Source: Ascidiaceihabitans donghaensis (GTDB lineage: Bacteria; Pseudomonadota; Alphaproteobacteria; Rhodobacterales; Rhodobacteraceae). Taken from it: a DNA stretch of 64,000 bases. A model generated the notes under the pieces. That model had not been told where the DNA came from and did not search any database. It saw only the letters and a program-made list of their open reading frames with translations. The DNA is taken from NCBI RefSeq assembly GCF_900302465.1, contig NZ_OMOR01000001.1:3318729-3382728 (forward strand), given 5' to 3'. The translations under genes were made by a program, and so were the position numbers. Below are positions 6,086 through 13,473 of this stretch, piece after piece; position 1 is the stretch's first letter; each line of letters starts with the position of its first letter.

Positions 6086-8125
6086 ATGATGGACAAGGAC
6101 CCGTCACACATTGTGCTGTCTTTGGGCGACGCCACCTATGAGCGTCAATCAGGTCAATTGCGCGATGTGAACGGAGCCGAAATTACGCTGCGCCCACAAT
6201 CAGCTGCGATGCTAAAACTGCTTGCGTCGCGTGTCGGTGAAACCGTCACAAAAGACGCGCTGATCGACGAAGTCTGGTCCGGTCTAAGCGTAACAGACGA
6301 TAGCATTGTGCAATGTATTGCAGATATTCGACGCAACATCGGGGATAAAACACGGCAAATCCTGCGCACGGTGCCCAAAAAGGGATACTGCCTGAGCGCG
6401 CTTGAAAAAGAAGTCGCGGTTGCCCCCCTTGCGTCAGCGCCACACGCACAACATGATACCGTGGTTTCTGTGTTGGCCTTTGCCCGTCGTGTCGGGGCCA
6501 CCCTTCATATCGCCTGTGGAACAGCGGACAACGCTGCGGTTTTTCATGCCGACATGGCGCAGTTCGCAGCAGGCCAGGGCCTGACCATCGCCACCAAAGG
6601 CCCTGATTGGATCGAAATCGCGTGCGAAAGTGCAATGGCGGCTTCGGCATTTGCTTTGCTTGCCGTTGCATCACGTCCTTTGCGCATCGGTATTGATATG
6701 GGGTCTCCACAGGATATGCCCCCCCACCGTGCCCGCCATCTTGCCGCATTGGCCCATGCCGGTGACATCATGATATCGGGCGAAGTGACACAGTTTCTGA
6801 CTGCGGGTCTGGATTGCGATATTCTGGACATTGGCGATTGCGTGCTGCCCGACATCGAAGAACGCACGCGATGCTACAAGATTTTCGACCGCACCCAAAC
6901 GCCCGGCGCAGCCTCTGTCGTCAATCGCGAAGATTTGCTGCCTACGATTGCCATTATCCCGTTCAAAGCCCGCAACCCCGACCCCCAAGCGGCGGTTTTG
7001 GGTGAAGTTCTGGCCGAAGACGTCATTTCCCTGTTATCGCGATCCCTTGAAATCAATGTCATCTCCCGCCTGTCCAGCACCAAGTTTGCACAGCGGGATG
7101 CGTCTTTGGCGGAAATCGGCAAGCTGTTGGGCACCAACTATGTGTTGTCAGGCCGCCACATGGCACGCGGTGGCAAACTGGAAGTCCACGCAGAGCTGGC
7201 AGAGGTCAGCACAGGGCGTATCCTGTGGGCCGACGCCGAAACCTGCGACGTCGATCAAAGCTATTCCGCCCCCGACATCATCGAATGGATCGTGGCGCGC
7301 GTGCAAAAGGCGATTTACACCCGCGCGGTGATGCAAGTGCGTCAGCAGCCCTTGCCCACATTGGAAAGCTACACCCTGTTGATGAGCGCCGTGGCGTTGA
7401 TGCACCGCTTGTCACCGGACGACTTTTTCAAAGCCAAAGTGCTTCTTGAGGCGTTGATGGAACGCGCCCCAAATCAAGCAGCCCCCATCGCATGGATGGC
7501 GCGGTGGCATGTGCTGCGTGTGCAGCAGGGACAATCCCCCGATCCCGGAACCGAAGCGGAACCCGCCCTGGATCTGACAAAACGCGCCCTGGATCTGGAC
7601 CCCGACAACGTGTTGGCCCTTGTGTCTGAAGGCATGGTGCTGACCAATTTGAAGCGCCAGCTGCATGACGCCGAGGAACGCTATAACCGCGCCCTCGACA
7701 TCAGCCCCAACGACGCTGTGGGGCGCCTTTTACGCGGTACCATGTTTGCGTTTCGCGGCGAAGGTCAGGACGCCATACGCGACACCGAACATTCCTTGCG
7801 ACTGACCCCTTTGGACCCCTTGAAGTTCTTCTTTTTATCGCTGACAGCCACCGCATATTTAACGGCAGGCCAAAATGAAAAGGCACTGGAACTTGCAGAG
7901 CTGTCCCTGCGTGCCAACAGCACCCACACCTCGACCTTGCGCGTCAAAGGCGTGGCGCAAATGCGTCTGAACCGGGTCAAAGAAGCCCGCGAAACGGGCG
8001 TAAAGCTGATGAAGTTGCAACCCAATTTACGGGTCAGCGACTGGCTAAGACTTTCCCCCACACGCGATTATGCATGGGGTCAGGAGCTGGGAAACACCAT
8101 GAAAGAAATCGGTATTCCCGAATAA
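6086..8125 (+). CDS. CadC/OmpR-type winged-helix regulator with degenerate cyclase domain, TolB-like domain and TPRs
   Basis: 679 residues with four recognisable parts. Residues about 10-110 are a winged-helix DNA-binding domain (LRPQSAAMLKLLASR...LIDEVWSG...SIVQCIADIRRNIGD). Residues about 125-275 look like a class III cyclase homology domain (PLRIGIDMG...HLAALAHAGDIMISGEV) without recognisable metal-binding aspartates or a transition-state site, so it is probably non-catalytic. Residues about 288-400 (TIAIIPFKA...EVLAEDVISLLSR...NYVLSGRH) match the TolB-like segment often found between cyclase and TPR regions. The rest is TPR-like helices. No transmembrane segment is evident, unlike CadC. 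It lies 36 bp upstream of the PAP2 gene on the same strand and probably controls that cluster. The ligand is unknown. Confidence 0.82.
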   Translation: MMDKDPSHIVLSLGDATYERQSGQLRDVNGAEITLRPQSAAMLKLLASRVGETVTKDALIDEVWSGLSVTDDSIVQCIADIRRNIGDKTRQILRTVPKKGYCLSALEKEVAVAPLASAPHAQHDTVVSVLAFARRVGATLHIACGTADNAAVFHADMAQFAAGQGLTIATKGPDWIEIACESAMAASAFALLAVASRPLRIGIDMGSPQDMPPHRARHLAALAHAGDIMISGEVTQFLTAGLDCDILDIGDCVLPDIEERTRCYKIFDRTQTPGAASVVNREDLLPTIAIIPFKARNPDPQAAVLGEVLAEDVISLLSRSLEINVISRLSSTKFAQRDASLAEIGKLLGTNYVLSGRHMARGGKLEVHAELAEVSTGRILWADAETCDVDQSYSAPDIIEWIVARVQKAIYTRAVMQVRQQPLPTLESYTLLMSAVALMHRLSPDDFFKAKVLLEALMERAPNQAAPIAWMARWHVLRVQQGQSPDPGTEAEPALDLTKRALDLDPDNVLALVSEGMVLTNLKRQLHDAEERYNRALDISPNDAVGRLLRGTMFAFRGEGQDAIRDTEHSLRLTPLDPLKFFFLSLTATAYLTAGQNEKALELAELSLRANSTHTSTLRVKGVAQMRLNRVKEARETGVKLMKLQPNLRVSDWLRLSPTRDYAWGQELGNTMKEIGIPE

Positions 8126-8161
8126 CCAAACACAACACATTTCAAACCAAGGAGCGTTAGT

Positions 8162-9379
8162 ATGAGAAATTTTGAAGGTGGCGGACCAGAAGCTGGTATT
8201 GCGGGCATTGCAGGGATCGCGGGTATCGCAGGAATTGCGGGCATCGCCGGAATTGCTGGCATCGCAGGGATCGCAGGCATTGCGGGCATCGGCCAGCAAA
8301 ACCCGCTGACGTCGGATGCTTTGATCACCAACCGCGACGGCATTTCAGGAACTCCGCTGCCAACGCCTTTCCCTGTCGCGGCCCCAAGCCCCGAAAACGC
8401 CAAGAACCTGTCGCGCCTGTCTGCGGACGTTCGTGCCAGCATCTTCGATTTCGAATTGGCATCACGCATCGGTTTTGCAGCATCCCCGCGCACCAGCAAC
8501 GATCCGGCTGTTGCACGCGTGTTCCAAATGGAAACAACGGCGAACGCAGGCGACGCGCCAACTTGCGCGTATCAACCCCTGATCACCATGTCCGAACCGA
8601 CAATGGACACGTTCCAAACCCAGCTGAGCTATCTGTTTTCCTATGCTGATCTACGCCCCGACCGCGGCGCGGAAATCCTGGCGCAAATCGGGTCGCCCGT
8701 GGCCTTCATGGCCTCAATCGGATTCATGGATGCAGGCCGCACGCCCCATACCCTTGAACTGCTGGCCACAGTTCTGCGCCTTGCCCGCTTTGTCGAAATG
8801 CGCGTGAAATATTCACTGGCGTGCAAACGCCCCCTTGAGTTTTCGCCACAAGTGCAGCCAATGATCCCGACACCGACACATGGCACATTGCCCAGCGGCC
8901 ACGCCACCGAAGCCTTCATTCTGGCACGGACCGTCTGGAAGCTGATGCGGGCCTCCAATGCGCCGCAATACAACGCCAATGATGGTGTCTTTGGGGACAT
9001 GCTGATGCGTCAGGCTGCGCGGGTCGCAATCAACCGCACTGTTGCAGGCGTACATTTCCCTGTGGACAGTGTGTCCGGCGCACTCCTTGGTTTGACGCTG
9101 GCAGACTTCGTGTCGGAACGTTGCACCTATTGCACCGGGGACACCGGACAACGCACCTCTGCCAGCTTCAACGGCGAAAACTTTGCCGGGGCAGACGATT
9201 TCAACTGGCATCAACTGTATACGGCACCCGATGATGCCCAAGTGGCTGACCAGATTGGCACCGACGGCAAATGGATGACATCCCAAACCGAAGATACTGC
9301 AACAGACCTGACCGATTCCGCGCCGTTGCAATGGCTTTGGGGCAAAGCTGTAAAGGAATGGACCGACATCACTTCGTAA
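8162..9379 (+). CDS. PAP2/vanadium-haloperoxidase-fold protein with an N-terminal (Gly-Ile-Ala)10 array
   Basis: 405 residues. After MRNFEGGGPEA come ten uninterrupted GIA triplets and one GIG (residues 12-44), then a helical region and a complete PAP2/haloperoxidase signature: K216-x6-R223-P224, P244-S-G-H247, and R292-x5-H298-x3-D302. That set binds phosphate or vanadate, so the protein could be a phosphatase or a vanadium-dependent haloperoxidase; the soluble-looking long N-terminal region favours the haloperoxidase-like branch, but this is inference. There is no classical signal peptide; the GIA array itself is hydrophobic. The start is supported by AAGGAG 11 bases upstream. It is followed after 58 bp by a subtilase, with the regulator just before. 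Confidence 0.85.
   Translation: MRNFEGGGPEAGIAGIAGIAGIAGIAGIAGIAGIAGIAGIAGIGQQNPLTSDALITNRDGISGTPLPTPFPVAAPSPENAKNLSRLSADVRASIFDFELASRIGFAASPRTSNDPAVARVFQMETTANAGDAPTCAYQPLITMSEPTMDTFQTQLSYLFSYADLRPDRGAEILAQIGSPVAFMASIGFMDAGRTPHTLELLATVLRLARFVEMRVKYSLACKRPLEFSPQVQPMIPTPTHGTLPSGHATEAFILARTVWKLMRASNAPQYNANDGVFGDMLMRQAARVAINRTVAGVHFPVDSVSGALLGLTLADFVSERCTYCTGDTGQRTSASFNGENFAGADDFNWHQLYTAPDDAQVADQIGTDGKWMTSQTEDTATDLTDSAPLQWLWGKAVKEWTDITS
8195..8293 (+). repeat. In-frame 9-bp coding repeat, ten GIA triplets plus GIG
   Basis: Eleven consecutive 9-bp units encode Gly-Ile-Ala ten times and then Gly-Ile-Gly. The protein repeat is perfect, while the DNA units vary at almost every third position: all four Gly codons, both common Ile codons and all four Ala codons are used. 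That is the pattern of a repeat kept at the protein level rather than a fresh slippage product. Confidence 0.95.
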
Positions 9380-9437
9380 GACACCCACCCGAGGGGACCT
9401 ATGATTTCTTATGAATTGAAAACGGAAAGGAAGCGCC

Positions 9438-11495
9438 ATGCAGCTTCAATGGAAAGATGTTTCGGCACCTGATGTGCTGGACTATAGCACCGACTACCGT
9501 TTGCGGCAGTCGGCCATGCAACAAGGTGCGCCAGCACAAGACCAGTGGTGGTCTGCGCTGGTGCAGCTCGACAATATGTCATTGGTTGGATTTGCAGATG
9601 TGTTGCAGTCCAATTTTGACGGCGACGCCGTGATCCCTGTCGAGGATCTTATTGAAGGCGAAGATGAAAGCGACCCAGATTTCTTTGTCAAAATCTTCGC
9701 CAAACCAAACGCGCTAAATGCGCTGAACGCCACCGGAAACAGCTTGGGGGTGCGCGATATCAGTCTGGGCCACGAAGTTAGTGATGACGCGGCCGCCACA
9801 GCAAGCCAACCCGACCTTGTTGAAGGTGCGGCAAACAACATCACCGTGGTGGAAGACGGCACTGTGACTGTCGGCATCATTGATGACGGCATCGGCTTTG
9901 CCCACAATCTGTTTCGAAAAGGGCTGACCGAAACACGGCTGGCGGCCATGTATATCATGGATGCCGACAACGGGCCGAACAAGGCCGTGGGGCGCAAGCT
10001 GTTTACGAAGCAGATCAATGCCTTGATGGTCCAGAACACCTTTTCGGGAATTCTCGACGAAGAGGCGTTTTACACAGCAGCAGGCAGCATCGACTACGCA
10101 AGCCCGTATTTCTCAACCACCATGTACCGCAGATCGCACGGGTCACATGTGATGTCACTGGCTGCGGGATATCCGATGGAAGATGCGCGTGACGACCGTC
10201 CGATCATCGCGGCCCAGCTTCCAAGTGCCGTCAGCGAAGACACCACCGGCACAAGTTTGGCCCCAAGCCTGCGGTCGGCCCTGCGGTTCATCAAACGGCG
10301 TGCAAAACGTATTCGCGTCGGATCGGCAAACGGACCGATTGCGCCTTTGGTGGTGAACTTCAGCTATGGCAACTTCAATGGCCCAAGCGATGGCACCAGC
10401 ACGATTGCGCGGATCATTGACCGTGAAATGCAATCGACACCTGAAGAACAGCGGCGCATGGTCATGCCTGCGGGCAATTCAAATCTGGCGCGTGTGCATG
10501 CCGCGATCAACTTTGCACAGGCACCGGCGGGTCACGATATCACGCTTGATCTGAACGTGATGCCGGATGATTTTACCGGCACCTTCGTCGAAGCATGGAT
10601 GCCCTACAGCGCCAACACACCACCGCCCAATGTTGTTGCGGTGCGTGTGACGCCGCCATTCGGGTCCACCAGCTTGTTGGTGCATGCGCAGGCGGGATCA
10701 AGTCAGGTGTTGCACAACGCGGCCGGTGAACAAATTGCCGAACTGGCCTATGCCTTGGAACCTGCCCCAACAGCGCGTGGGGTGATCACCTTGTCGATTA
10801 ACCCGACCTTCACAAACGAAGACAGCGTGCATGTGGCCCCGTCGGGGCGTTGGACCATGGCCTTTCAAAACAATTGCTTGCCTGACGATGAAACCGTTCA
10901 GGTGCGCATCCAGCGTGATGAAACTTTGCCCGGCTACAAAACCGGCGCACGGCAAGCCTATTTCAACAACGCCTGCTATGTGCGCTTCAACAAGATAGGA
11001 GAACCGTTGCCTGTTGATCCCGAAGGGTCCGATTGCCCCATCCGGCGTGCCGGCACCTTGAACGGCTTTGCCTGTGGAGACGAACCGATCATGATCGGCG
11101 GGTTGACGCAAAGCAACGGACAGCTGGCTGTCTATTCCTCTGCGGGGCCAAGTTCCAAGGCGCGGGGGGCTGCTGTTCCCACACGCATGGGGCCGGACGC
11201 CTCAGCGCGTAGCGACGACAGTCTTGTGGTCTACGGCGTGTTGGGCGCAGGCACCCGCAGCGGGTCCATGGTGCATCAGAACGGAACAAGCGTGGCGGCA
11301 CCACTTGCAGCCCGTATGGTGATTGATGCTTTGGCTGAAGGCGAAGACGCAGACCGCGCTTGGGTGGCTGCACAAGGGGAACGCGACGACAGCAGTTATC
11401 CCCCCCTGCAACCCGCGCAACCCTTCGTTACACGCACCGGGGGCGGACGGCTTCGGCTGGCAAATCCTTTTGGACCGCAGCCACCACAGCCTTAA
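9438..11495 (+). CDS. S8-family (subtilisin-like) serine peptidase
   Basis: 685 residues with a full catalytic triad: D149 (VGIIDDGIGF), H234 (SHGSHV) and S618 (NGTSVAAP). The oxyanion asparagine is probably in VMPAGNSN. Between that Asn and Ser lies an insertion of about 190-230 residues rich in beta-type sequence (ITLDLNVMPDDFTGTF..., FNNACYVRFNKIG), so the catalytic domain is split by an extra domain. No signal peptide or clear propeptide is seen: the protein opens MQLQWKDVSAPDVLDY. The C-terminus ends in a proline-rich tail. AAGGAAG precedes the start. It lies directly downstream of the GIA/PAP2 gene, 58 bp away, and a terminator hairpin follows. Confidence 0.9.
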   Translation: MQLQWKDVSAPDVLDYSTDYRLRQSAMQQGAPAQDQWWSALVQLDNMSLVGFADVLQSNFDGDAVIPVEDLIEGEDESDPDFFVKIFAKPNALNALNATGNSLGVRDISLGHEVSDDAAATASQPDLVEGAANNITVVEDGTVTVGIIDDGIGFAHNLFRKGLTETRLAAMYIMDADNGPNKAVGRKLFTKQINALMVQNTFSGILDEEAFYTAAGSIDYASPYFSTTMYRRSHGSHVMSLAAGYPMEDARDDRPIIAAQLPSAVSEDTTGTSLAPSLRSALRFIKRRAKRIRVGSANGPIAPLVVNFSYGNFNGPSDGTSTIARIIDREMQSTPEEQRRMVMPAGNSNLARVHAAINFAQAPAGHDITLDLNVMPDDFTGTFVEAWMPYSANTPPPNVVAVRVTPPFGSTSLLVHAQAGSSQVLHNAAGEQIAELAYALEPAPTARGVITLSINPTFTNEDSVHVAPSGRWTMAFQNNCLPDDETVQVRIQRDETLPGYKTGARQAYFNNACYVRFNKIGEPLPVDPEGSDCPIRRAGTLNGFACGDEPIMIGGLTQSNGQLAVYSSAGPSSKARGAAVPTRMGPDASARSDDSLVVYGVLGAGTRSGSMVHQNGTSVAAPLAARMVIDALAEGEDADRAWVAAQGERDDSSYPPLQPAQPFVTRTGGGRLRLANPFGPQPPQP

Positions 11496-11557
11496 CGCCA
11501 TCTGATGTTGTTTTCGCATACGCTTTCGTAGAACGACACAACCGGCGAAAAAGTGTG

Positions 11558-11583
11558 AAATCGGCCCCCACTCGGGCCGATTT
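11558..11583 (+). terminator. Intrinsic-terminator-like hairpin after the subtilase gene
   Basis: Perfect 10-bp stem AAATCGGCCC / GGGCCGATTT with a 6-base loop, starting 62 bases after the subtilase stop. The following T-rich run is short (CTTGCATTT), so termination may be imperfect. Confidence 0.6.
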
Positions 11584-12355
11584 CTTGCATTTAGGCACAA
11601 AATTTCTGCATTTAGGGCAGAAGCAACTTCTTGAAACAAAACACATTTCGTAAATTTTCGTTTTTTTTAGCCTGAGACTTCAGGATTCCACACAGCACCT
11701 TGCGTAATGTGAACCCACGACGTCGAGCCACGCTGAAACGATCCTTGCGCACCAAAGCAAATTACTGCCGCACAAGGAAAGCAACGCAAGGAAAGACCGA
11801 GTTGTAATATGCCTGAACATTACTGTTTCAGGCTGCAAACCCGACAGGTCATATTTTTGACCGCTCAACCGGGCGCGCAGAAGGTAAAGGGTACGAAGGG
11901 GTGTTTTGGTACGAGTAAGTTTCGATAGTGCGATCCGTTCGTAACATCAAAGTGTAGTCTGCGCGGTGCGTCACAATGGCTGGGTTTATTTTGACCTAAG
12001 TCGACGCACCGTGGCGAAAGTTTCCGACATCAGTTGCAATGAATGGGCCTTTTATTCCGAGGGTTCTAAATGGGGGGGTGCGTTTGAAGTTTCGTTCCCG
12101 ATCACGGCAACTGTTTTTTTAGAACTTAGTGTGGCGGCGTATTAAGCCATACATCAATCCAGCCTGCTGTGGCGTGATCTGGAAACAGAAAAGCGGTGCA
12201 GTTCAATTTTAGAAGCCTGCGTGCCTCGTCAGCACGCAGGTCAGGCTTGGTTGATGGGCCACACATTTTTCTGTGCGCTTGGTGTCTGTGCAAAGCTGGG
12301 CGGTGGCACGCCCATTTTTAACGTGATCCTAAACAAATTGTACCAATGTCAGGCG
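11584..12355. other. Long non-coding, repeat-containing spacer
   Basis: About 770 bp without a credible gene, AT-richer than its surroundings. Direct repeat of TTTCT(T)GCATTTAGG at 11581-11595 and 11603-11616 (22-bp period); hairpins CCTGA-gact-TCAGG (11671-11684) and GCCTGAA-9-TTCAGGC (11811-11833) with related stems; direct repeat CAAGGAAAG (11773, 11787); CCTTGCG at 11699 and 11743, inverted as CGCAAGG at 11785; and a perfect 9-bp stem CCTGCGTGC/GCACGCAGG (12216-12240) in the leader of the next gene. An sRNA or a complex promoter is possible; nothing identifies one. Confidence 0.5.
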
Positions 12356-12793
12356 ATGCTGCGCGTATTCTCATTGCTGTTGCCCTGCCTCATTCCGTCA
12401 TGGCGGTTTTTCCAAGCCATAGAACCAAGTCCACGCGTTGAATGGCGTATAGTTCGCGATCTGCCCGCACCAACTTCCTCTTGGGTTCCCTACAATCCGC
12501 GTCCTCAGACCACGTCGGTGTTCACCATGCTGCGCAGGCTATTCTGGAACCCTGCGTGGAACGACGACCTGTTCATGGTCAGCTTGTCCGAACGTCTGAC
12601 GCTGGCCCCTTCCACCCACAGCATTGATGAAATCCGCGCCCGCATCACCCAACAGGCCCGGCGGGGTGCCCCGTCGCTTAGCCCCACATCACAGCTGCAA
12701 TTCCGTCTTGTCTTCATCAGCAGAGGGGACGCTTCTGCAATCGTGACCGAAACCACCTATGTCTCTGCGCCCTTCGCAGCAGTCGCAGCATGA
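12356..12793 (+). CDS. Conserved-looking small protein paired with the HTTM gene, function unknown
   Basis: 145 residues from the ATG at 12356. The frame is open further upstream (to 12221), but that part crosses the strong hairpin at 12216-12240 and does not look like protein, so the inner start is preferred. The sequence begins with a short hydrophobic stretch (MLRVFSLLLPCLIPSW), then RFFQAIEPSPRVEWRIV, a central RRLFWNPAWNDDLFMVSLSERL and a basic C-terminal half. It overlaps the next gene by 4 bases (ATGA), so the two products probably work together. I do not recognise a named family. It could be a membrane-associated partner of the HTTM protein. Confidence 0.65.
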   Translation: MLRVFSLLLPCLIPSWRFFQAIEPSPRVEWRIVRDLPAPTSSWVPYNPRPQTTSVFTMLRRLFWNPAWNDDLFMVSLSERLTLAPSTHSIDEIRARITQQARRGAPSLSPTSQLQFRLVFISRGDASAIVTETTYVSAPFAAVAA

Positions 12794-13473
12794 GCTTTGA
12801 GTGCGCCCAACGCCTGACTGAAATCCTGCTGGCCCTTGCCCTGTTGCAAAGCGCGTTGGAACATCTTGTCCACAGCCGCCAAAACCGCACCGTTTTTGCA
12901 ATGCGCATCATCTGTTGCGGGCTGCTGTTGGGCGACCTTATGACCCCTTGGGCGTTGCTTGGCCTGTTTCTGACAGCTGTATTTCTGCTGCACCGCTTTC
13001 AAGGGCCCTACAACGGCGGCAGCGACAAGATGGGCATATTGATCCTGTTTTGTCTGGGCCTAAGCCATGCAGCACCTTCACCGTTTTGGCAGGACATGGC
13101 CTTTGCCTATCTCGCGGTGCAATTGACCTTGTCCTATTTCATTTCCGGTCGGGTCAAATTGATGAACCCTGAATGGCGCAGCGGTCAGGCATTGTCAGAT
13201 GTTTTTGCGTTCTCTGCATATCCTGTGGCGGAAAACCTGCGCGGATTGGCAAACCGCACCGGCATATTGTGCGCCATGTCGTGGTTGGTCATCGGCTTTG
13301 AGGTCTTGTTTCCCCTGACCTTGCTCAGCGCCCCCAGCCTGTATTTTGCCTTGATCGTTGCAAGCCTGTTTCACATGGCAAATGCATATCTGTTCGGTTT
13401 GAACCGCTTTTTGTGGATATGGATCGCGGCCTACCCGTCTTTGATCTGGTTTCAGGACAGGATTTTTGGCTAA
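12790..13473 (+). CDS. HTTM-like multi-pass membrane protein (vitamin-K-dependent carboxylase-like fold)
   Basis: 227 residues with about six hydrophobic segments and the conserved-looking stretch FQGPYNGGSDKMGILILFCLG. Later segments include FISGRVKLMNPEWRSG and FHMANAYLFGLNRFLWIW. This arrangement resembles HTTM-domain proteins, the membrane part shared with vitamin-K-dependent gamma-carboxylases; no soluble carboxylase domain is attached. The role is unknown: quinone-linked redox chemistry or membrane transport are both possible. It is coupled to the gene before it by a 4-base overlap. Its stop codon interlocks with the stop of eda on the other strand (CTAA). Confidence 0.65.
   Translation: MSFECAQRLTEILLALALLQSALEHLVHSRQNRTVFAMRIICCGLLLGDLMTPWALLGLFLTAVFLLHRFQGPYNGGSDKMGILILFCLGLSHAAPSPFWQDMAFAYLAVQLTLSYFISGRVKLMNPEWRSGQALSDVFAFSAYPVAENLRGLANRTGILCAMSWLVIGFEVLFPLTLLSAPSLYFALIVASLFHMANAYLFGLNRFLWIWIAAYPSLIWFQDRIFG

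Follow-up and report, generated by a model that had tools for sequence, protein, structure and literature searches.

Known Systems with Related Features

Several described systems share parts with a three-gene module found in a 64,000-nucleotide stretch of Ascidiaceihabitans donghaensis DNA (contig NZ_OMOR01000001.1, positions 3,318,729 to 3,382,728 of the forward strand), which is called the window below. The module encodes a regulator with tetratricopeptide repeats (TPRs), here termed REG; a PAP2-superfamily enzyme that begins with a tandem array of short peptide units, termed PAP; and a subtilase, termed SUB. A close parallel is provided by the RRNPPA systems of Bacillota (Rap-Phr and its kin), in which a TPR regulator, sequence-specific short peptides, and processing by proteases are likewise combined. 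RRNPPA propeptides sometimes carry one to four repeated copies of the pheromone, as described in one account (PMC11343458). The module examined here occurs mostly in Pseudomonadota, its peptide consists of tandem units of two to six residues fused to a PAP2 enzyme with no secretion signal seen, and its regulator joins a FlgO-like region to one of three domains, namely a winged helix, a cyclase, or BTAD. Furthermore, the small secreted propeptide gene that lies beside an RRNPPA receptor has no counterpart here among conserved neighboring genes of at least 90 amino acids, and the repeat is instead the N terminus of a 405-amino acid enzyme. The RRNPPA-type groove does find a candidate equivalent in REG, which carries TPRs; at co-directional loci, the putative groove of these TPRs changes along with the array.

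The two enzymes also have well-known relatives. Clostridial Csp proteins are germination subtilases, and CspB cleaves pro-SleC. SUB shares with them a prodomain-like part, a beta-rich insert, and an Asp-His-Ser triad, but no germination family is found among the conserved neighbors of the module, and the substrate proposed for SUB would be the array-bearing PAP2 protein. The PAP2 superfamily, which includes class A acid phosphatases and vanadium haloperoxidases, has K-X6-RP, PSGH, and R-X5-H-X3-D motifs that are intact in PAP. Unlike these relatives, PAP has the N-terminal tandem array and an extra beta region, and no signal sequence was seen.

De novo designed repeat proteins can bind tripeptide repeats by superhelical matching, as reported in PMC10115654. 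The module presents a similar pairing of a helical repeat protein with tandem tripeptides that it may recognize, in this case a natural one. A one-to-one match between identical repeats is not expected, because within a single protein the TPRs do not all have the same residue at position 9. No published description of the module, nor of a natural reader of tripeptide repeats, was found in the open-access literature searched. An earlier model-made annotation of the window, here called the original prediction, had named the three genes as its best candidate for an undescribed system but had missed the homogeneous, lineage-variable unit that co-varies with the TPRs of REG.

A Candidate Intracellular Relay

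The module might function as an intracellular relay with three parts. The flexible N-terminal tail of the PAP2 enzyme would display a short peptide private to the lineage, repeated many times without change, and the concave groove of the REG TPR domain would bind two or three of these units in a sequence-specific manner. Output from the regulator would be DNA binding by the winged helix or, in relatives, would come from a class III cyclase. The co-encoded protease, here a Csp-like subtilase, would cut the tail or the junction between tail and enzyme, thereby breaking or releasing the complex and switching the regulator, the enzyme, or both. Many copies could permit several regulators to dock on one tail, or could ensure that each cut product stays readable. 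The chances seem evenly balanced that the REG groove reads the array and that the protease probably cuts the tail, where we infer binding and cleavage, as well as which way the switch works and what its output is.

A broader proposal, which could equally well prove right or wrong, is that tandem short-peptide tails and TPR grooves constitute a readable and switchable code. Each lineage or paralogous locus would have a private unit, exchanged as a block and matched by changes in one TPR after another at position 9; the protease would be exchangeable, and two modules in one genome (AGI and GGTH) would work without cross-talk. If the groove reads the array, the approximately 100 natural pairs of unit and groove would be a ready data set for a TPR-peptide specificity code, which so far has been built from scratch by protein designers.

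Conservation of the Three-Gene Module

Homologues of PAP (E<=1e-15) are present in at least 102 of 394 genomes of the family, a lower bound because four candidates per genome at most were scored. A total of 124 PAP places were listed in the family, including that of the window, and 100 of the other 123, mostly the higher-scoring ones, were fetched with their flanks and used to build profiles. By these profiles, SUB is present in 97 of the 100 fetched loci and REG in 99. The loci that lack SUB are L094 and L128, where PAP is close to a contig end, and L131, for which there is no explanation; REG is missing only from L099, again with PAP close to a contig end. The distance between SUB and PAP is at most about 530 bp in every case except L083 (2 kb), and REG is 0.9-2.3 kb from PAP in four loci and nearer in the remainder. 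Among loci from named genomes, the best 80 of 377 confirmed loci (several of whose genomes are shared with the 100-locus set) yielded SUB in 79 and REG in 79; L211 and L189, the two exceptions, sit where their contigs end.

The association also holds in reverse. SUB-family places (E<=1e-25) occur in 99 of 388 genomes, and 110 of the 121 are no more than 6 kb from a listed PAP place. Of the 11 that are remote, L268 has a PAP found by other means, L257 (a single open reading frame, or ORF, matching all three profiles) and L266 are close to contig ends, and L258-L265 are eight weaker subtilases with no array nearby, although a weak REG match lies 2.7 kb from L259. No gene family besides the trio is conserved nearby among ORFs of at least 90 amino acids at 83 loci, a survey that a very small conserved ORF could escape. 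The largest leftover neighbor clusters, with 14 of the 83 loci each, look heterogeneous or are antisense to the PAP ORF. Rare adjacency of the three homologues in other genomes would have counted against the original prediction; they are commonly adjacent, and the trio is a conserved and self-contained module.

Among 162 complete trios, REG is co-directional with PAP in 96 and divergent in 66, and SUB is convergent in 27 of those 66. The named loci belong mostly to Rhodobacteraceae, Microvirga, Bradyrhizobium, Paraburkholderia, and others, and their hosts also include Yoonia, Ruegeria, Tateyamaria, Rhizobium, Hydrogenophaga, and Kiloniella. Plasmids of Phaeobacter are also among the carriers (21 of 35 plasmid records). 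The full-length enzyme (E<=1e-85) is rarer beyond the family: it was seen in 15 of 398 genomes sampled across the phylum and in 5 of 289 sampled across the class, and both samples contain family members. In seven annotated Phaeobacter records, the only labels given to the three products are 'phosphatase PAP2 family', 'S8 family serine peptidase', and 'winged helix-turn-helix'. In Parasedimentitalea marina pW43B (L253), the trio is there with PAP and SUB broken by frame changes. Elsewhere two modules stand side by side and face each other (L045 and L161), with the arrays SAY and GS.

A Homogeneous Array That Changes as a Block

The window PAP gene (8162..9379, forward strand, as for all features below) encodes 405 amino acids, of which residues 11-43 (8192..8290) form the array (AGI)11. 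The tail is predicted to be disordered, with a predicted local distance difference test score (pLDDT) below 50 for residues 1-45 of the AlphaFold model, and the enzyme body is well ordered. The 'GIA' tract pointed out by the original prediction is one instance of a general array at the PAP N terminus: a clear short tandem array begins 165 of 170 non-redundant PAPs. Among the other five are L042, L107, and L155, with imperfect arrays, and L189, which is cut by a contig start. About 100 different units occur (100 by the detector, with at least one misreading, the mixed start of L193), such as AGI, GGV, SGF, NAY, and NSQ. The period is three residues in 140 arrays, four in 17, two in four, five in two, and six in two.

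Within an array the copies are nearly perfect, with only 21 departures from the unit in 4,915 array residues, a lower bound in that the detector prefers pure runs. The codons are not. For the same residue, codons differ between copies in 0.639 of pairs, compared with 0.576 expected from the codon usage of the same genes outside the array. Even among the twelve arrays that are least diverse compared with expectation, the minimum is 0.24 synonymous differences per pair. At seven Phaeobacter loci compared at the codon level, just the copy number (5 or 6) and synonymous codons vary within the array. Because the DNA copies are far from identical, the copies must be held identical in protein by selection, judging from these codon patterns; slippage of DNA as the cause of homogeneity is ruled out by the same codon diversity.

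Whole arrays switch their unit between relatives that share about 90% identity in the enzyme body. Examples are GGV x12 and GGI x12 (L164, L170), GGF x12 and GGL x11 (L033, L134), SGF x11 and SGL x11 (L137, L138), and SGV x12 and TGL x6 (L198, L207). There is selection for exact peptide repetition despite little repetition in DNA, and the unit turns over as a block, which poses the evolutionary question of how ten copies and their reader change together.

A role of the array as a membrane anchor or signal was rejected; it is not an anchor in general because the mean hydropathy of the unit exceeds 1.6 in only 3 of 162 arrays and is below 0 in 80 of 162. A collagen-like structure was also ruled out, as Gly is absent from 25 of 100 units. 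Another view is that identical units drive PAP to associate with itself as a condensate, fiber, or zipper, any link to the regulator being secondary. Such a homotypic assembly tag would explain why homogeneity matters while the unit may differ, and it is compatible with the predicted disorder of the tail; many units also resemble FG, GGX, or YG low-complexity repeats. However, the chemistry ranges from AGI to SGR, GKE, and NSQ and the period from 2 to 6, so that there is no common assembly geometry, and coupling to groove positions of REG is not predicted. An assembly tag is judged unlikely.

The repeats, the fused enzyme, and the adjacent subtilase resemble multi-core pathways for ribosomally synthesized and post-translationally modified peptides (RiPPs). 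By that analogy, the array would be a repeated core that the fused PAP2/haloperoxidase-like domain modifies and SUB sets free. No residue type is common to all units for a halogenase to act on, the conserved neighbors include no transporter or tailoring family, and the coupling of the array to TPRs would be left unexplained, all of which makes a RiPP-type pathway very improbable.

The TPRs of the Regulator Co-vary with the Array Unit

The REG gene (6086..8125) encodes 679 amino acids, and its TPR region (residues 420-679; 7343..8122) lies within the part that tracks the array unit by pairwise identity. In 73 non-overlapping pairs of loci, 22 of which share a unit, TPR identity is 8 points higher in the same-unit pairs after correction for the identity of the PAP body and SUB (p 2e-4). 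No unit effect was detected in these pairs for the FlgO-like part of REG (p 0.86), for the array-proximal part of PAP (p 0.47), or for SUB (p 0.34 with REG as a covariate and 0.5 without). When units were relabeled, 0 of 300 trials reached the observed coefficient (maximum 0.105 vs 0.113). In co-directional loci the TPR effect is 0.083 (p 3e-5). SUB as the reader of the unit is not supported: it has no positive effect in any pair test. Within a six-locus clade around L033, L134, L137, and L138, no SUB columns and two REG columns split with the F/L difference.

The signal is concentrated at one TPR position. With TPR start points assigned by hand from the motif and Pfam hits, position 9 stands out among the 34 positions (mean 0.225, next 0.08), and the ranking of REG columns places T589 first, M517 fourth, and V623 sixth. 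The seven TPR positions that vary most lie on the concave face; position 9 is one of them and serves in ligand binding in HOP (PMC1261162). For tests of single columns, which covered those of REG, SUB, and PAP (1,025-1,124), the units of 89 co-directional period-3 loci were rotated so that the bulkiest residue is X3.

The column coupled best to X1 is position 9 of TPR1 (M517 in the window; 7634..7636). All 34 loci whose units begin with GG have F here. Where the unit begins with GA, the residue is F or H in 12 of 16 loci; where N or S comes first, it is Q or N in 13 of 21. It ranks first of 1124 columns when changes are compared with changes, first of 1025 by mutual information with average product correction (APC; z 7.6, next 4.6), and first of 1124 for volume contrasts on independent pairs, 44 per pairing (r -0.71, next -0.41). 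At 75% weighting, this pair ranks first among 341,071 pairs of columns from different proteins.

Position 9 of TPR3 (T589; 7850..7852) varies with X3. It is T when X3 is A (9/9), I (7/7), V (8/11), or L (10/16); S when X3 is F (12/15); and G or A when X3 is Y (17/18), with W mixed (G, T, S). The mutual information of this pair ranks second of 1025 in co-directional loci and first of 1064 in all period-3 loci. Where both residues changed (nine pairs), their sizes moved in opposite directions in eight (p 0.04), including L033/L134, L137/L138, and the window with L032. The four best columns for X2 by mutual information are all in helix A of a TPR. On these comparisons of sequence, the peptide-binding groove of REG appears to have co-evolved with the array unit.

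The same co-variation would fit a scheme in which the protease chops the array and the free identical peptides are the TPR ligand, an intracellular version of RRNPPA signaling. Selection for identical copies is in keeping with such peptide release, and RRNPPA precursors with several identical copies are known, again from the account cited above (PMC11343458). Against it, no signal peptide was seen (by hydropathy only), two-residue units such as GS and GQ hold little information, and the fusion partner, an enzyme whose active site is intact, would be superfluous. Release of free peptides is thus a possible but rather doubtful explanation.

Points Against the Relay

A number of results weigh against the relay in which REG reads the array. 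One PAP, L076, has no array at all. Tested jointly, all groove positions reach only p 0.055, and the size rule failed at position 9 of TPR4 (3:4). The coupling of X3 to TPR3 position 9 ranks just 35 and 26 of 1124 for change-change and size contrasts, respectively, and the effect on TPR identity is not significantly graded among pairs with different units (median p 0.21). The pair of X1 and TPR1 position 9 falls to 7 of 345,560 at 60% weighting and to 91 of 353,897 at 50%; this drop, together with similar values in other inter-protein pairs, indicates that shared ancestry contributes. The divergent class alone (n=48) has no clear column, and its TPR effect is of weak significance (0.084, p 0.055, 28 pairs). 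Moreover, the SUB coefficient in co-directional loci is negative (-0.068, p 0.007 with REG as a covariate; -0.024, p 0.32 without), a result that the relay would not lead one to expect and that may stem from the conditioning on REG. Finally, no protease was recognized beside PAP at four of the distant loci described below (L283, L284, L286, and L289), where the next ORFs were not scanned with Pfam.

Some of these points would be expected if the array were only a spacer and the TPR signal came from shared ancestry or from joint transfer of the 3' end of REG and the 5' end of PAP. The 3' end of REG is just 36 bp from PAP in the window, the background of inter-protein coupling is high, and the divergent class lacks a clear column. 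However, in divergent loci it is the opposite, 5' end of REG that faces PAP, and the size of the TPR effect is unchanged. In addition, neither the PAP residues after the array nor the FlgO-like part has an effect, the signal is concentrated on position 9, and a spacer has no need of identical units with diverse codons. A spacer with these origins of the signal is regarded as improbable.

Exchangeable Proteases in Distant Modules

The relay assigns a cutting step to a protease, and the kind of protease differs between modules. The window genome (4.08 Mb) contains a second module (L254:6543-10405; G000:C1:3125000-3140500), comprising a regulator with a BTAD domain and TPRs (REG2), a shorter array-bearing PAP2 protein with GGTH repeats in place of the AGI of the window, and a papain-like protein for which no Pfam match was found at E<=0.01. 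At sixteen further distant PAP loci, an array is present in all 16 and a Csp-like SUB in none. REG adjoins PAP in 14 of the 16, and the other two, L288 and L290, begin at contig starts. A protease lies beside the array-bearing PAP2 gene in 12 of the 16, six being papain-like and six a short subtilase.

The short subtilases (L287 and L291-L295) have 503-537 amino acids, lie downstream of PAP, and are unmatched by the SUB profile; the arrays at these loci are NRD, SR, SR, NR, NR, and NK. In the papain-like set, Gln57, Cys63, His261, and Asn286 are present in 7 of 7 proteins, and two of four scanned (L285 and L282) score above the cut-off for Pfam C1, with the other two slightly below. The array and the regulator, contig ends permitting, are the constant core of the module, next to which one sort of protease or another is usually retained. 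Because it is retained although its family changes, a relation between the protease and PAP2 is likely from these gene neighborhoods, in partial support of the original prediction, by which the subtilase would process the PAP2 protein or its partner.

The PAP and SUB Enzymes

In PAP (Pfam PF01569, E 4e-9), the array is followed by a conserved RDGISG motif (residues 58-63; 8333..8350), for which the family form is RDGIVG. The PAP2/haloperoxidase catalytic residues, in K-X6-RP (216-224), PSGH (244-247), and R-X5-H-X3-D (292-302), encoded within 8807..9067, show no or almost no variation in two alignments, one of 34 sequences and one of 75. Fold searches with PAP give class A acid phosphatases as the best PDB matches (7f17, E 5e-6), and vanadium haloperoxidases are weaker. 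The original prediction had raised halogenation or lipid-phosphate chemistry as a possibility, which these best matches, soluble enzymes, do not support.

SUB (9438..11495; 685 amino acids; Pfam PF00082, E 5e-12) retains its catalytic residues Asp149 (9882..9884), His234 (10137..10139), and Ser618 (11289..11291) in 74 of 74 sequences. Its model (pLDDT 93) has a fold with a prodomain-like N-terminal part and a beta-rich insert. Fold searches match it to CspA, CspB, and CspC at E 3e-23 to 1e-21, with the next best at 7e-9; by sequence the match to CspB is weak (E 1e-4).

Two other assignments of the module were considered. An anti-phage role was rejected, as none of five proteins matched a PADLOC model; just IetS appeared at E 0.036-0.055 for the two subtilases. 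Phage origin was also rejected, a single weak partial match being found in phages.

Gene Models and Neighbors in the Window

The three ORFs are co-directional, each starts with ATG, and the gaps of 36 bp (REG to PAP) and 58 bp (PAP to SUB) agree with those given originally. The nearest named relative of the locus is in an uncultured Rhodobacteraceae bacterium. A terminator after the third gene had been predicted, and a terminator-like hairpin with an 11-bp stem is indeed located 3' of SUB at 11557..11584, but the scan that found it gave 10 such sites in the region against 8.4 expected and is weak as sole evidence.

REG has a Trans_reg_C winged helix (Pfam, residues 30-103) followed by a FlgO/TolB-like region and TPRs. 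It had been described as cyclase-like, a label that the window protein does not merit, as it has no Guanylate_cyc match at E<=1 in Pfam. That domain is present in some relatives (L142, E 4e-13; L184, E 1e-9). Among nine relatives scanned, the N terminus is a winged helix in some and a class III cyclase in others, FlgO matches occur in two (L157 for one), and all nine have TPRs. The description of the trio as leaderless stands for REG and SUB, in which no hydrophobic N terminus was seen by Kyte-Doolittle hydropathy, the only measure used; by the same measure the (GIA)n array of PAP is itself hydrophobic (2.1).

Directly before REG, an ORF of 214-521 amino acids is present in 11 of 83 loci (including L140:4987-5724 and L147:5374-6021), and the two scanned had no Pfam match. 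Beyond the module, a small ORF at window positions 12221-12793 precedes the gene for an HTTM-domain protein at 12790-13473 (PF05090, with a weak match to the SdpB family), and relatives of this protein were seen in just one other locus of the set.

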